From Bradyrhizobium erythrophlei (GTDB taxonomy: Bacteria > Pseudomonadota > Alphaproteobacteria > Rhizobiales > Xanthobacteraceae): a stretch of 64,000 bases of DNA. The stretch spans positions 5,782,501 to 5,846,500 of the forward strand of contig NZ_LT670849.1 in the NCBI RefSeq assembly GCF_900142985.1, in the 5' to 3' direction. A program made the translations under genes and the position numbers. A model generated the notes under the pieces. The model saw only the letters and a list, made by a program, of their open reading frames with translations. It did no database searches and was not told the origin of the DNA. Position 1 is the stretch's first letter. Every line of letters begins with the position of its first letter. This document shows, in pieces, positions 14,890 to 39,382 of this stretch.

Positions 14890-14967
14890 CTAGTGCGGCT
14901 TTGATTTTGAAGTTCCTATGACGAATTCGCCGCGATATTGATAGGAACTTCAAAATCGCCGCACTAG
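14890..14967. repeat. Long palindrome 2, overlapping the end of the AlgX-like gene
   Basis: CTAGTGCGGC...GAAGTTCCTAT on the left is mirrored by ATAGGAACTT...GCCGCACTAG on the right, about 27 paired bases. The right arm encodes the last codons (ALVRRF, stop) of the minus-strand gene. It shares the GAAGTTC core with palindrome 1. Confidence 0.7.
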
Positions 14968-16140
14968 CGCGCGCAGCGGATCGATATAGCCGGCTTTGTC
15001 GACGAAGGACTCGTTCTCTTCGAGGATCATGACTTTGGCGTCGCGCAGCGGCGTCAGGTCGCTGTCGACGAGATTGCGCTGCAATTCGTGGATCGGCGTG
15101 CCGCCGAAGCGGCCGAGGATCAGGTAGTAGTAGAAGCGAAACCGCGCGAGACAGTTGCCCTCGATCATGATGCGCGCGGGCAGGTGGCCAAAACTCGAAC
15201 CGACCATCGCCACGTCGAGGTTTCGTGCCGGACTCTCCGCGCAAGGCACGGATGGCTGGAAACTTGCCTGCGGCGTTTGGTATCCGAGGTGCGGGAAGAA
15301 CACGTTGAGGAGATCGGCGAGTTCGCGATCGGCGCCTTTCTCCGGCGTCGCCAGTGTGTAGGTGAACGTGAAGGGCGGGATGAGTTCGCGCCCCGCCTGC
15401 TGGTTGATCGCCTCGACGATGGCCAAAACCGCCCGTGCACCGCCGACATCGTTCCAGTGCACGCCGCCTTGCGGGAACAGGTCGAAGGGGTACGTGCCCT
15501 TCAGCGAATGGATCAGGCTTGCGGTGTCAACGACATGGATGCCGCCTTGCCGGAGCGCGCCGACATAGTCAGGCACCAATTGCTTGCGTGCCTCCGGCGT
15601 ACTGGGGCAGGGGACGCTGTTGATAAAATATTCCGGCAGATGCGCGACCTTGGACGGCGAGACGACGTAGATGAAAATGCCGCCGCGGTTTTCGTAGTAG
15701 TTCTGGATGTCGCGCAGCTTCGGCAGGATATCGGCAGCGAGCTTCAAACCCATGCCTTCGGTACGCGAACAATAATCGTTGAGATACACCCGCTCGATCA
15801 ACTGGCCTTTGACGCCCCTGACCACGTTGGGTGCGGTCAGCTCGCCGAACAGCTGATAGCGAATTTCATTGTTGACACGAATGAGCAGTGGGCGGATCGC
15901 CATCGCGTCGGTAACGCGGCTCGTCACGGCTTTCTGAAAACTCCCGTCACGAACGGTCGCCCATGACAGGATCACGGGCTTGTCGTAGGTGACGCCGTCG
16001 AGCTTGGGGCCGATTCTGATCGTGTGCGAAGGGAAGTACTGCAGGGCGAGAAGGTTCCAGGCGGTACCAAGCGGCAATAGCGCGAGGAAGGCGCAGAAGG
16101 CGGCGCGGACGATAGGGCGGGAGAGGGCGACGTTACGCAC
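14950..16140 (-). CDS. AlgX/AlgJ-like SGNH hydrolase, O-acetylation partner
   Basis: 396 aa. One N-terminal signal-anchor (IVRAAFCAFLALLPLGTAWN) and a periplasmic AlgX/AlgJ-type SGNH domain: GVKGQLIERVYLNDYCSRTE near residue 110, IYVVSPSKVAHLPEYF near 160, and FPQGGVHWNDVGGARAVLAI near 225 (the D..HWN pair). The serine motif is VAMVGSSFGHLPARIM near 310. With the neighbouring MBOAT gene 3 bp upstream it should transfer acetyl groups to a cell-surface polysaccharide. No alginate-synthesis genes are nearby, so the polymer is unknown. The last codons lie inside a long palindrome. Confidence 0.75.
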   Translation of the reverse strand: MRNVALSRPIVRAAFCAFLALLPLGTAWNLLALQYFPSHTIRIGPKLDGVTYDKPVILSWATVRDGSFQKAVTSRVTDAMAIRPLLIRVNNEIRYQLFGELTAPNVVRGVKGQLIERVYLNDYCSRTEGMGLKLAADILPKLRDIQNYYENRGGIFIYVVSPSKVAHLPEYFINSVPCPSTPEARKQLVPDYVGALRQGGIHVVDTASLIHSLKGTYPFDLFPQGGVHWNDVGGARAVLAIVEAINQQAGRELIPPFTFTYTLATPEKGADRELADLLNVFFPHLGYQTPQASFQPSVPCAESPARNLDVAMVGSSFGHLPARIMIEGNCLARFRFYYYLILGRFGGTPIHELQRNLVDSDLTPLRDAKVMILEENESFVDKAGYIDPLRALVRRF

Positions 16141-16143
16141 TGG

Positions 16144-17556
16144 TCAGAACCTGAAATAGATGAAGGGCTGGAACGGCGCGGTCACCGCCCGCGCGATCGC
16201 AAGCACGTAAACAACGACAAGGGCTGCGATTGTGATCGCGCGGAGCGAGCGGCTTGCCTCATAACGGCGAACGAGCACTGGGTAGAAGGCGGTTGCCGGC
16301 AACAGCGAGACGATGGCGCCGAGTGCCAGCGCGAACGGCAGCTCGGCCGGAACTTCCAGGGCGTCGTTGGCGGACGTCATGCCGAACAGCGCCGAAAGAA
16401 AGGTCGTCAGGTGCGCGGGTGAATCGGAGCGGAAAATCGCCCAGCCGATCATCACAATGAACAGCGTAACGATGGTGGCGATGACCGCGCCGCATCGTTC
16501 GAGTACATCGCGCAGGAAGACGCGATCGAGCGTGAGAAACAGGCCGTTGTAGGCGCCCCACAGCACGAAATTCCAGCTCGCGCCGTGCCAGAGGCCGGAC
16601 AGCAGGAAGCAGATCCAGAGATTGCGGTAGGTGCGCACATCGCCGTCGCGGTTTCCTCCGAGCGGCTTGTAAAGATAGTCGCGGATCCAGGTCGTCAGCG
16701 ACATATGCCAGCGCCGCCAGAATTCCGTGATCGAGCGCGACGCATAGGGCGCGTTGAAGTTTTCGCGAAGGCCAAAGCCGAGCATGCGCGCAAGCCCGAT
16801 CGCCATGTCGGAATAGCCGGCAAAATCGAAATAGATTTGCAACGTGAAACTTCCAAGCGCGAGCCAGGCGTGGCTTGCGCCAAGGCTCGCAGGATCGGCG
16901 GCAAAGACGGTATTGACGAAGCTGCCGAGCGGATCGGCGATCAGCAGTTTGCGCCCGATGCCGCGCGAGAAACGCAGGAAGCCTGTGCCGAAATCGCTCC
17001 ACTCGACGGACCGCGGCTTGGCGATCTGGTCCTGCATTTCGTGATATTTGAGAATGGGGCCGGCAAGAAGTTTCGGGAAGAACAGCGCGAACAGGCAATA
17101 ATCGCGGAATGTCGCCGCCGGCTTCGAGGTGCCGCGATAGGTGTCGACGAGATAGGTGATCTTCTCGAACACCACGAAGGATACGCCGATCGGAAGCGCA
17201 AGGTGCAACAGCGGCAGCCGATGCGCGCCGAAGGGCGAAAGCGCGGCGTTGAGATTGTCGGCGAGGAAATCGGCGTACTTGTAGACGACGAGCATCGCGA
17301 GATTGCCGGCCACGCCGGCTGCAAGCGCGAGCCGCCGGGTTGGAGGCGGGGTTGGTTCGTTCAGCTGGAACGACAGCGCGTAATCGAATGCGGTCGAACC
17401 GAACAGGATCAGAACGAAGACCGGCTCGCCCCAGAAATAAAACAGCGCGCTCGCGATGAGTAGCAGCCATTTCCTGGCCGAGACGCCGCCGGTGAGCAGA
17501 TAGACGGCGTAAAAAGCGGGGAAGATCGTGATGAACAGCGGTTCGTAAAACAGCAT
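16144..17556 (-). CDS. MBOAT O-acyltransferase, AlgI-like
   Basis: 470 aa, about 11 membrane spans, of the membrane-bound O-acyltransferase family. Conserved features are the N-terminal MLFYEPLFITIFPAFYAVYL, the RFFxGSxxYLxDIWRG-like segment NAPYASRSITEFWRRWHMSL, TWIRDYLYKPLGGNRDGDVR, and the catalytic His in LLSGLWHGASWNFVLWGAYN. It moves acetyl groups from acetyl-CoA across the inner membrane to its SGNH partner (14950-16140). The two genes are 3 bp apart and form an operon. The start at 17556 gives the typical N-terminus; the longer frame upstream is not protein-like. Confidence 0.85.
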   Translation of the reverse strand: MLFYEPLFITIFPAFYAVYLLTGGVSARKWLLLIASALFYFWGEPVFVLILFGSTAFDYALSFQLNEPTPPPTRRLALAAGVAGNLAMLVVYKYADFLADNLNAALSPFGAHRLPLLHLALPIGVSFVVFEKITYLVDTYRGTSKPAATFRDYCLFALFFPKLLAGPILKYHEMQDQIAKPRSVEWSDFGTGFLRFSRGIGRKLLIADPLGSFVNTVFAADPASLGASHAWLALGSFTLQIYFDFAGYSDMAIGLARMLGFGLRENFNAPYASRSITEFWRRWHMSLTTWIRDYLYKPLGGNRDGDVRTYRNLWICFLLSGLWHGASWNFVLWGAYNGLFLTLDRVFLRDVLERCGAVIATIVTLFIVMIGWAIFRSDSPAHLTTFLSALFGMTSANDALEVPAELPFALALGAIVSLLPATAFYPVLVRRYEASRSLRAITIAALVVVYVLAIARAVTAPFQPFIYFRF

Positions 17557-17680
17557 GTGCGAGCCGGCGTTGTTTCCTGAACCGTGGCCTCGGCGACCGG
17601 TAAAGCACGGCCTCAAGGGCCGACGCAACGGGCGGGGTTATCCGGGGAACACCGGACGTGGGGAAAACGAGCTGGGTTAC

Positions 17681-17714
17681 AAAAAAGGACGCGGCGGAAG
17701 TGATCCGCCGCGCC
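17681..17714 (-). terminator. Terminator of the rreB transcript
   Basis: On the minus strand CGCGGCGGA pairs with TCCGCCGCG around 5 nt and is followed by six or more Ts. It ends a predicted transcript of about 166 nt starting near 17846. Confidence 0.8.
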
Positions 17715-17773
17715 CCGTTCTTGAAACTCGCTGGTCCAGGCGCTGAGAAACGCCCTTGGCCAAGCAGACGTGC

Positions 17774-17818
17774 TTAGCGGGCGATCCCAGCGAGGTGACA
17801 GCGCTTGGTATAAGACAC
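17774..17818 (-). CDS. rreB: rreB: 14-aa peptide in a small ribosome-bound mRNA
   Basis: A 15-codon frame with GTG start encodes MSYTKRCHLAGIAR. Its ribosome-binding site is a 17-nt perfect match to the complement of the 16S 3' end. The predicted transcript runs from about 17846 to the terminator at 17681, about 166 nt. This agrees with the published rreB gene of Bradyrhizobiaceae (165-nt mRNA, 14 aa, 17-nt SD, GTG start; Hahn et al. 2017). There the mRNA sits on 30S subunits and is poorly translated, because the oversized SD and the GTG slow initiation. The assignment is from architecture and recollection of that paper; sequences were not compared. Confidence 0.9.
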   Translation of the reverse strand: MSYTKRCHLAGIAR

Positions 17819-17834
17819 TGGATCACCTCCTTTC
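17818..17834 (-). promoter_or_regulatory. Extended 17-nt Shine-Dalgarno of rreB
   Basis: GAAAGGAGGTGATCCAG is the full complement of the 16S 3' end CTGGATCACCTCCTTTC, far longer than a normal 4-6 nt SD. Its last base overlaps the GTG start codon. Confidence 0.9.
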
Positions 17835-17852
17835 GTTGTTGATGGAGACATT

Positions 17853-17881
17853 AATATAGGCCGTTGAATCCGGCCTGTTAA
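17853..17881 (-). promoter_or_regulatory. rreB sigma-70-type promoter
   Basis: On the minus strand: TTAACA (17881-17876), a 17-bp spacer and TATATT (17858-17853). Transcription would start near 17846. Confidence 0.65.
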
Positions 17882-17937: not shown

Positions 17938-18011
17938 GCGGGTGTAGCTCAATGGTAGAGCAGCAGCCTTCCAAGCTGAATACGAGGGTTCGATTCCCTT
18001 CACCCGCTCCA
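17938..18011 (+). tRNA. tRNA-Gly (TCC), with encoded CCA
   Basis: Acceptor GCGGGTG pairs with CACCCGC; anticodon loop CTTCCAA (TCC); T-arm GGGTTCGATTCCC; CCA encoded at 18009-18011. A tyrosine-recombinase remnant lies 70 bp downstream, so the 3' end is a plausible integration site. Confidence 0.97.
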
Positions 18012-18083: not shown

Positions 18084-18626
18084 TCACTTTATCTTCGCCT
18101 GCTTGGCTTGCCTTGCGCGGCGCTTGATACGTTTCATTTGCGCCTCCTGCTTGGCCTCGTCATCGTCATGGAGATAATGCGCCATGGCCGCCGTCGACGA
18201 CCACTGGCCCTTCTGCATCAACTGAGTCTCAGTCAATCCGGATGCGCTCGCTTCAGTTGTGCCGCCGTGGCGACCGAACGAGGTGAAGGTCAGTTCGGGC
18301 CGCAAACCCGCGGCCAAGATTATCTTCTTCGAAATCCGCTGGACCTGCGTCAGGATCTCGCCCTTGCCAAACCAGGGCAGGCTGCTGCCGTCCCGTCGCA
18401 ACATCAGGCCGCCGGTTGGACGAAGCTTCTTGATGGCGTCGAGTTCGGCCATCAATAGCGGGTAGAGCGCCTTGCCCTGGGCGTTGAACAGCGGTTCCCA
18501 AGACCCGGTGCTCGTTTTGTAGTTGATAACGTAGACATGGTTTGGCCGGTTCGGCGGGCGATAGTGCTCGGCGACAAAGCGGATGAAGATGTGCGCCTCG
18601 CGCTGCAACCACTCCCAACCGATCAA
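18084..18626 (-). pseudogene. Tyrosine recombinase (phage integrase), 5'-truncated
   Basis: 180 codons covering only the catalytic half. Visible blocks: NYKTSTGSWEPL, ALYPLLMAELDAIKKLRP, TFTSFGRHGGTTEASASGLT (the Arg-His box) and GQWSSTAAMAHYLHDDDEA with the nucleophile Tyr. The N-terminal SAM-like and arm-binding domains are missing: the frame starts abruptly at a TTG next to an unrelated ABC-protein remnant. It points toward tRNA-Gly and is probably the relic of an island that inserted there. Unlikely to be active. Confidence 0.7.
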
Positions 18627-32982: not shown

Positions 32983-33291
32983 TTACGTCTGGGAAACCGG
33001 CTCCCCTCTGGGCCGGTATCGCGGCGAGCCGATCGAACTCGTCGACGGCCGCAAAGCCGTCCGAAGTGTCGTACCGACAGGCGGCGAGACCGGCCAAGTG
33101 CCCGTATTGGCGAAGGCCCGCCCACCCCTGACACCGAACAAGATCTGATCGTCGCTCCATGGCGGCTTTTGTCCGGCCTCATAGCGGAACTGTGCGAGGC
33201 CAAGCTGGAGTAGCTTTTGATCATCGTTGAGATCAATCACGGTGTCGGAGGAGAAGCGACGCTGATTAGGCTGCTTCCGCGTTCCGCTCAC
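32983..33291 (-). CDS. Hypothetical protein, about 102 aa, start within the 527-bp repeat
   Basis: Begins MSGTRKQPNQRRFSSDTVID and continues LNDDQKLLQLGLAQFRYEAG, a plausible small protein. Its first 13 codons lie inside the left copy of the direct repeat. In the right copy (38856) the frame runs into unrelated sequence, so the left copy is the ancestral context. Function unknown. Confidence 0.45.
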   Translation of the reverse strand: MSGTRKQPNQRRFSSDTVIDLNDDQKLLQLGLAQFRYEAGQKPPWSDDQILFGVRGGRAFANTGTWPVSPPVGTTLRTALRPSTSSIGSPRYRPRGEPVSQT

Positions 33292-33779
33292 GATCGATGA
33301 ATATGTTTCACTGGACGATAAATGGCCCGAACACGGATAGGTGACCTCGGAATAGAGTTGCCGGCGCGCAAGTCTCTATCATTAGGAACTTCGCAACGAG
33401 AACCTGGAGCAAACGGGCATGACTGAACCTTCTGATGGGTCCGTCCTCGACGCGACCTTCGAAAGTGAAAGCTTCGACCGTATAAGCATTGCTCTCCATT
33501 GGATCGCAGCACTCCTCATTGTCATGATGTTTGTTACCGCATGGTCGCGCGAAGCCGTCGACCACGACACACGCCTTGTTTCATCATTGATGACCGCTTA
33601 CCGAACGACGGGCGTTGTGACATGGATCGTGGGGTGGGTGCGTCTCGTCTGGCGGTACAATTTCGCCTATCTACCGCCAATTCCTGAGAACATGTCGAAC
33701 CTGCAACAATGGGTCGCAAAGGCCAATGGTCTCGGCAATGTCCTGTTTCGCGGCCGCTCTTTTTCATCGTTCATTTGGG
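33253..33779. repeat. 527-bp direct repeat, left copy
   Basis: Identical to 38856-39382 except one visible C/T difference (giving Pro versus Leu in the b561 frame). Offset 5603 bp. The two copies flank the ABC/AllA segment. Confidence 0.9.
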
Positions 33780-38855: not shown

Positions 38856-39382
38856 GAAGCGACGCTGATTAGGCTGCTTCCGCGTTCCGCTCACGATCGA
38901 TGAATATGTTTCACTGGACGATAAATGGCCCGAACACGGATAGGTGACCTCGGAATAGAGTTGCCGGCGCGCAAGTCTCTATCATTAGGAACTTCGCAAC
39001 GAGAACCTGGAGCAAACGGGCATGACTGAACCTTCTGATGGGTCCGTCCTCGACGCGACCTTCGAAAGTGAAAGCTTCGACCGTATAAGCATTGCTCTCC
39101 ATTGGATCGCAGCACTCCTCATTGTCATGATGTTTGTTACCGCATGGTCGCGCGAAGCCGTCGACCACGACACACGCCTTGTTTCATCATTGATGACCGC
39201 TTACCGAACGACGGGCGTTGTGACATGGATCGTGGGGTGGGTGCGTCTCGTCTGGCGGTACAATTTCGCCTATCTACCGCCAATTCTTGAGAACATGTCG
39301 AACCTGCAACAATGGGTCGCAAAGGCCAATGGTCTCGGCAATGTCCTGTTTCGCGGCCGCTCTTTTTCATCGTTCATTTGGG
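38856..39382. repeat. 527-bp direct repeat, right copy
   Basis: Near-identical to 33253-33779. It carries the same b561 start and upstream DNA but different flanks on both sides. Confidence 0.9.

Follow-up and report, generated by a model that had tools for sequence, protein, structure and literature searches.

What does selection maintain at the rreB-like locus of Bradyrhizobium erythrophlei: the 14-residue peptide that it encodes, or the RNA itself and its contact with the ribosome? The locus lies on the minus strand of the window, by which we mean the whole stretch of 64,000 nucleotides (nt) that was analyzed. Its 17-nt Shine-Dalgarno (SD) stretch, GAAAGGAGGTGATCCAG (17834-17818), is a perfect complement of the 3′ end of 16S rRNA, and this bears out the full complementarity claimed in the initial annotation. 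The last G of the 17-mer is at the same time the first base of a GTG start codon, from which a 14-codon open reading frame (ORF; 17818-17774) reads VSYTKRCHLAGIAR and then TAA, so that the GTG start and the short peptide proposed for this locus held as well, both by translation and by comparison with relatives.

The signals expected of a small transcription unit were found on both sides of the ORF. Upstream, a promoter-like TTAACA-17-TATATT (17881-17853, minus strand) scores 10/12, where shuffles are expected to give 0.2, and its strict sigma-70-like form, TTRACR-16/18-TAYAYT, occurs in 44 of 67 distinct Bradyrhizobium-type relatives. Downstream, the terminator scan revealed a single terminator-like site (17716-17686) with 13 pairs followed by Ts; together with the T tract this putative intrinsic terminator spans 17716-17681 on the minus strand and marks the end of the predicted transcript. 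Taken alone the scan is within chance, because one site stands against 0.8 expected. A terminator was called in about 73 of 75 related loci, the exceptions (L013 and L126) being one sequence, and its stem carries both-sided changes among relatives. With a start placed 6-7 nt past the −10 box, our arithmetic on these predicted sites yields an RNA of approximately 166 nt, in agreement with the promoter, terminator and length that had been proposed. The predicted RNA folds at −82.1 kcal/mol, compared with −54.9 ± 3.9 kcal/mol for shuffles (z = −6.9).

An SD of this kind might have arisen trivially. Within the window, no second match to GAAAGGAGGTGATCCAG occurs even when 3 mismatches are allowed (chance mean, 0.09), and the only other exact copy in the 7.5-Mb genome lies antisense to the 3′ end of a 16S gene (L001), with four more sites genome-wide resembling it at 2 mismatches. 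As its 17 bases are identical to the antisense of the 16S end, the stretch could be a chance match or a copied piece of 16S antisense without function. However, the similarity stops at these 17 bases, and the promoter, the ORF, and the folds recur in relatives; this conservation already contradicts such an origin, to which we attach practically no credence.

The manner in which the SD varies points to maintained contact with 16S rRNA. Variants were found in 16 of the 67 distinct Bradyrhizobium-type sequences, 15 of them with only A>G or C>T, and these changes retain the 16S pairing via wobble. Class-wide, pairing is retained by wobble in 14 of 17 substitutions in the SD core against a random expectation of 7/45, a count in which sites inside one family are not independent; when we grouped the changes into family-level events, 10 retained the pairing and 3 broke it. 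The pairing-breaking core changes in the class are three C>G, all at the last base. Most natural SD changes, as far as such comparisons can tell, are thus changes that preserve 16S pairing. The 17-bp SD-16S duplex has a computed energy of −32.2 kcal/mol (−10.7 kcal/mol for a short SD), whereas the computed cost of opening the SD is 8.1 kcal/mol.

Conservation of the ORF could mean that rreB encodes a functional 14-residue peptide, with the SD and the structure merely tuning its output. The 14 codons, whose conservation in related genomes the initial annotation had named as a check, are indeed kept over 75 loci, with a different ORF length in L047 and L057, and the segment KRCHLAG is mostly constant in the Bradyrhizobium type. 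Furthermore, ORFs remain open in frame across families, and an NTG start is retained at 67 of 68 class SD sites, a figure partly forced by the search pattern; the kept starts and open frames imply that translation matters and thereby argue against the explanation that we favor below. Selection for the peptide was then sought in the ORF variation of 66 sequences (the 75 loci comprise 67 distinct sequences, of which L057, altered in codons 2, 7, and 8, was excluded), and no excess of synonymous change was found by either of two counts. Of the alternative codon types, 26 were nonsynonymous, including one stop, and 1 was synonymous, while random single changes would give 83:30 (p = 0.009); a hand count of shortest-path codon steps gave about 23:4, which is indistinguishable from random (p = 0.32). 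In codons 6-9 every base is invariant in 66 of 66 sequences, and the invariance of the ORF is partly built in because 13 of the 66 came from an ORF-fixing pattern and the others were picked as best matches. Moreover, the peptides of other families vary widely in both sequence and length. We therefore consider a functional peptide rather unlikely, and the emphasis that had been placed on it is weakened, as the ORF is conserved as nucleotides with no sign of amino acid selection. This pattern suggests that evolution preserves the shape of the RNA more than the 14-amino-acid peptide.

Two helices give this shape a candidate form in the Bradyrhizobium type, for which a consensus was built from 52 of the 66 eligible sequences. 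In the consensus, a predicted hairpin, GAGGUGA (17829-17823)/UCACCUC (17798-17792), lies partly inside the ORF and would mask the SD. The support for this hairpin consists of energy and invariance only: compensatory changes in it were absent from the 52 sequences, in which only A-U to G-U changes were seen (13 sequences), and three pairs of the hairpin are disrupted in the divergent member L057. The consensus also contains a long-range helix, CUCGCUGG (17794-17787)/CCAGCGAG (17734-17727), likewise on the minus strand. In the helix GCUGG/CCAGC, one pair is G-C in 39 sequences, A-U in 8, G-U in 2, and broken in 3 (n = 52). Three bases (CUC) are common to the SD hairpin and the lengthened long-range helix, which would thus compete with each other. 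Predicted openness of the SD is 0.114 over the 75 Bradyrhizobium-type loci, compared with a family mean of 0.385 elsewhere. The terminator loop, GGATCACTTCC, was also considered as a mimic of the 16S tail that pairs with the SD; this candidate was dropped, as the loop varies among relatives.

Beyond the window's family, a 26-nt segment beginning at the start codon complements a stretch flush against the terminator, and both sides covary. The test covered 72 of 94 loci from 33 families, with the own family, ORFs of >45 amino acids (aa), loci in which no terminator was called, and two atypical loci excluded. The mean energy of own pairs was −17.93 kcal/mol, compared with −13.60 ± 0.55 kcal/mol for partner exchanges between families, and own-pair energy was reached by 0 of 1,000 exchanges in each of 50 draws. 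A control with neighboring windows gave no covariation signal (−12.88 versus −12.74 kcal/mol), and an earlier set (57 loci, 29 families) agreed with the result. The helix is not evident in every family and is weak, for example, in f18 and f21.

A leader or attenuator of a downstream gene would likewise contain a short ORF, alternative helices, and a terminator, and in the window an MBOAT gene follows on the same strand. Nevertheless, MBOAT is present in only 6 of the 75 loci (own included; one is a 71-residue stretch only, and roughly one locus in four has short flanks), no conserved regulated gene lies directly downstream, and the long-range helix abuts the terminator rather than competing with it. 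Attenuation of a downstream operon was set aside on these grounds, and we regard a leader or attenuator as very improbable; since the downstream gene of the window recurs so rarely, the unit looks stand-alone. The downstream region itself (14950-17628, minus strand) encodes an MBOAT acyltransferase (PF03062) and an ALGX-like protein (PF16822, barely above the cut-off), a pair resembling the alginate-acetylation pair.

On the opposite side, outside the RNA, the divergent neighbor tRNA-Gly(TCC) (17938-18011, plus strand) adjoins 30 of the 30 closest loci (own included) and 20 of 21 loci in named records, the exception having only 207 nt upstream. In other genera, where flanks were short, it was seen beside 2 of 20 loci, and it adjoins none of 14 additional loci. 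Bradyrhizobium-type rreB together with tRNA-Gly was also seen in MAG contigs labeled Tepidisphaeraceae and Sphingomonas palustris (L121 and L122), which are probably misbinned. Beside the tRNA, an ORF at 18084-18626 (minus strand) resembles by eye the end of a tyrosine recombinase; a Pfam search of this ORF gave no match at E values up to 5. Elsewhere in the window, an identical 300-nt direct repeat occurs at 33253-33552 and 38856-39155, 5.6 kb apart.

A search with the family matched 282 of 391 genomes at an E value of ≤0.001. Among the matches listed, 106 of 106 genomes of the same genus matched, and the 89 genomes with no match lie outside that list; for many of the weak matches outside the genus, the SD and start are probably all that is shared. 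An exact-core scan yielded 21 named records, 18 of them Bradyrhizobium, and USDA 110 is absent from these 21. The 24-nt SD-plus-start pattern (≤3 mismatches) gave 68 sites in 66 of 387 class genomes, while the reversed-pattern control gave zero among the matches listed for the same 387. In the phylum sample, in which group sizes were counted by hand and pattern hits inspected in part, the extended SD plus start, AAGGAGGTGATCCNNTG, was found in 79 of the 156 alphaproteobacterial genomes, compared with 2 of the 231 from outside the class. The two SD-plus-NTG hits outside the class (G828:C50:51745-51761 and G866:C27:2509-2525) belong to one genus, and three genomes (G400, G739, and G746) carry two family sites each. 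Five loci of families f44 and f91 (L089, L090, L093, L170, and L171) place the same extended SD before an ORF of 55-58 aa whose hydrophobic start and cysteine resemble those of a small exported protein; the extended SD is therefore not exclusive to such RNAs.

Under Rfam's own thresholds, a search over the window returned nothing but two tRNAs. With an E-value threshold, RF01867 (CC2171) matched over positions 1-159 (E value of 2.2 × 10−7, 39.7 bits), and because this score is below the cut-off of 75 bits, the RNA of the window is a relative and not a filed member of that family. Most of the match comes from the first 33 nt, and the remainder aligns poorly. At E values of ≤0.001, RF01867 matches 94 of the 387 class genomes, 14 of them above the cut-off, and in 14 control genomes a match was obtained only in Caulobacter vibrioides. 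Among the matches listed, 61 of the 68 class SD sites coincide with RF01867 matches, an overlap that is not independent because the SD forms part of the model. Within the window's GTDB family itself there are two ORF types, the Bradyrhizobium type and a CC2171-like type starting GTGTCTCATTGTC. CC2171, filed as a noncoding sRNA, and the published small mRNA appear to be relatives with representatives in many alphaproteobacterial families.

According to PMC11701678, RF01867 gains one covarying pair in Rfam 15, and PMC5596092 lists a CC2171-annotated 215-nt transcript, MH_s33, of Mesorhizobium huakuii. In Caulobacter, two earlier predicted noncoding RNAs, of which CC2171 may be one, were found to be translated (PMC4117421). 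Literature searches that covered rreB in combination with other terms returned at most PMC7298713, which cites the rreB paper (Hahn et al., 2017, RNA Biol 14:1353). We do not claim the link between rreB and CC2171 as unpublished, as the 2017 paper may name CC2171. What is new beyond the initial annotation is the sub-threshold relation to RF01867 and the helices.

The sRNA label that Rfam gives to the related CC2171, together with a predicted transcript that is stand-alone, terminated, and structured, would suit a base-pairing regulatory sRNA that acts on other mRNAs, a dual-function RNA in which the SD-like stretch and the ORF are secondary. Yet the anti-16S stretch running into the start codon is the most conserved part, and the 16S pairing survives the SD changes. 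We judge a regulator of this type to be quite unlikely.

The explanation that we prefer, with about an even chance of being right, is that rreB acts as a 30S-capturing mini-mRNA, structured and stand-alone, the selected product being the RNA and its ribosome contact and not the peptide. The 17-nt SD would pair over its full length with the 16S tail, and the short ORF at the edge of this duplex would sit in a closed fold held by the long-range helix. In most alphaproteobacterial families examined, this helix would pair the first codons with the segment immediately preceding the terminator; its counterpart in the Bradyrhizobium type would begin further downstream, and there a second hairpin would mask the SD. 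A binding 30S would have to open the fold, would be held by the over-strong SD, and would translate the ORF poorly, so that ribosome occupancy would set the fold and lifetime of the RNA. In the abstract by Hahn and colleagues, rreB is said to cosediment with 30S, to be weakly translated, and to change in stability upon mutation of the start codon. Together with the duplex energy, the reported cosedimentation and weak translation favor 30S capture with rare clearance. Collectively, sequence comparison supports the SD pairing, the long-range helix, the nucleotide-level constraint, and the stand-alone position, while we infer the 30S capture, the clearance, and any role of the RNA in sensing or taking up free 30S.

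A wider proposal, offered tentatively and with somewhat more doubt than confidence, is that rreB, rreR, and CC2171 belong to a single alphaproteobacterial family of RNAs that the ribosome operates, with the 3′ end of 16S rRNA as their ligand. Binding of 30S to the complete anti-16S strand would switch the conserved long-range fold, so that the RNA would sense free 30S or reversibly sequester it, the peptide being irrelevant, and the ORF-internal SD-masking hairpin would be an extra gate of Bradyrhizobium. An isolated curiosity would thereby become a testable class, with a covarying helix open to simple compensatory mutations. If the RNA does sense or store free 30S, it would be an unusual ribosome-level regulator.

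Among known systems, rreB of Bradyrhizobium japonicum USDA 110, as Hahn and colleagues reportedly described it in 2017, has a 17-nt SD, a GTG start, 14 codons, and a length of about 165 nt. The identification of our locus with rreB is supported at the level of these reported features (17-nt SD, GTG, 14 codons, a predicted length of about 166 nt, the genus Bradyrhizobium), with no known difference. The same abstract is said to describe rreR of Rhodobacter/Roseobacter, with 18 codons, which reportedly shares the extended SD and the short ORF. In our family f13, which we take to be the Rhodobacter/Roseobacter lineage, an 18-codon ORF starting MSHGS is present in five of the six loci; this rreR-like family differs from the window's rreB in its ATG start, its peptide, and its helix, CAUGGU/ACCAUG. 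Judged by such comparisons, the window's rreB is a branch of an alphaproteobacterial group. With the Caulobacter sRNA CC2171 (RF01867), the window's RNA shares the 5′ block CAAC..CGAAAGGAGGUGAUCCAGUGUCU.AU and the 3′ terminator, and in the RF01867 model, too, the region after the start pairs with the stretch before the terminator. However, the long-range helix of CC2171 has another sequence and place than that of the window's RNA, and Rfam types CC2171 as an sRNA without an ORF, whereas the window has an ORF of 14 codons.
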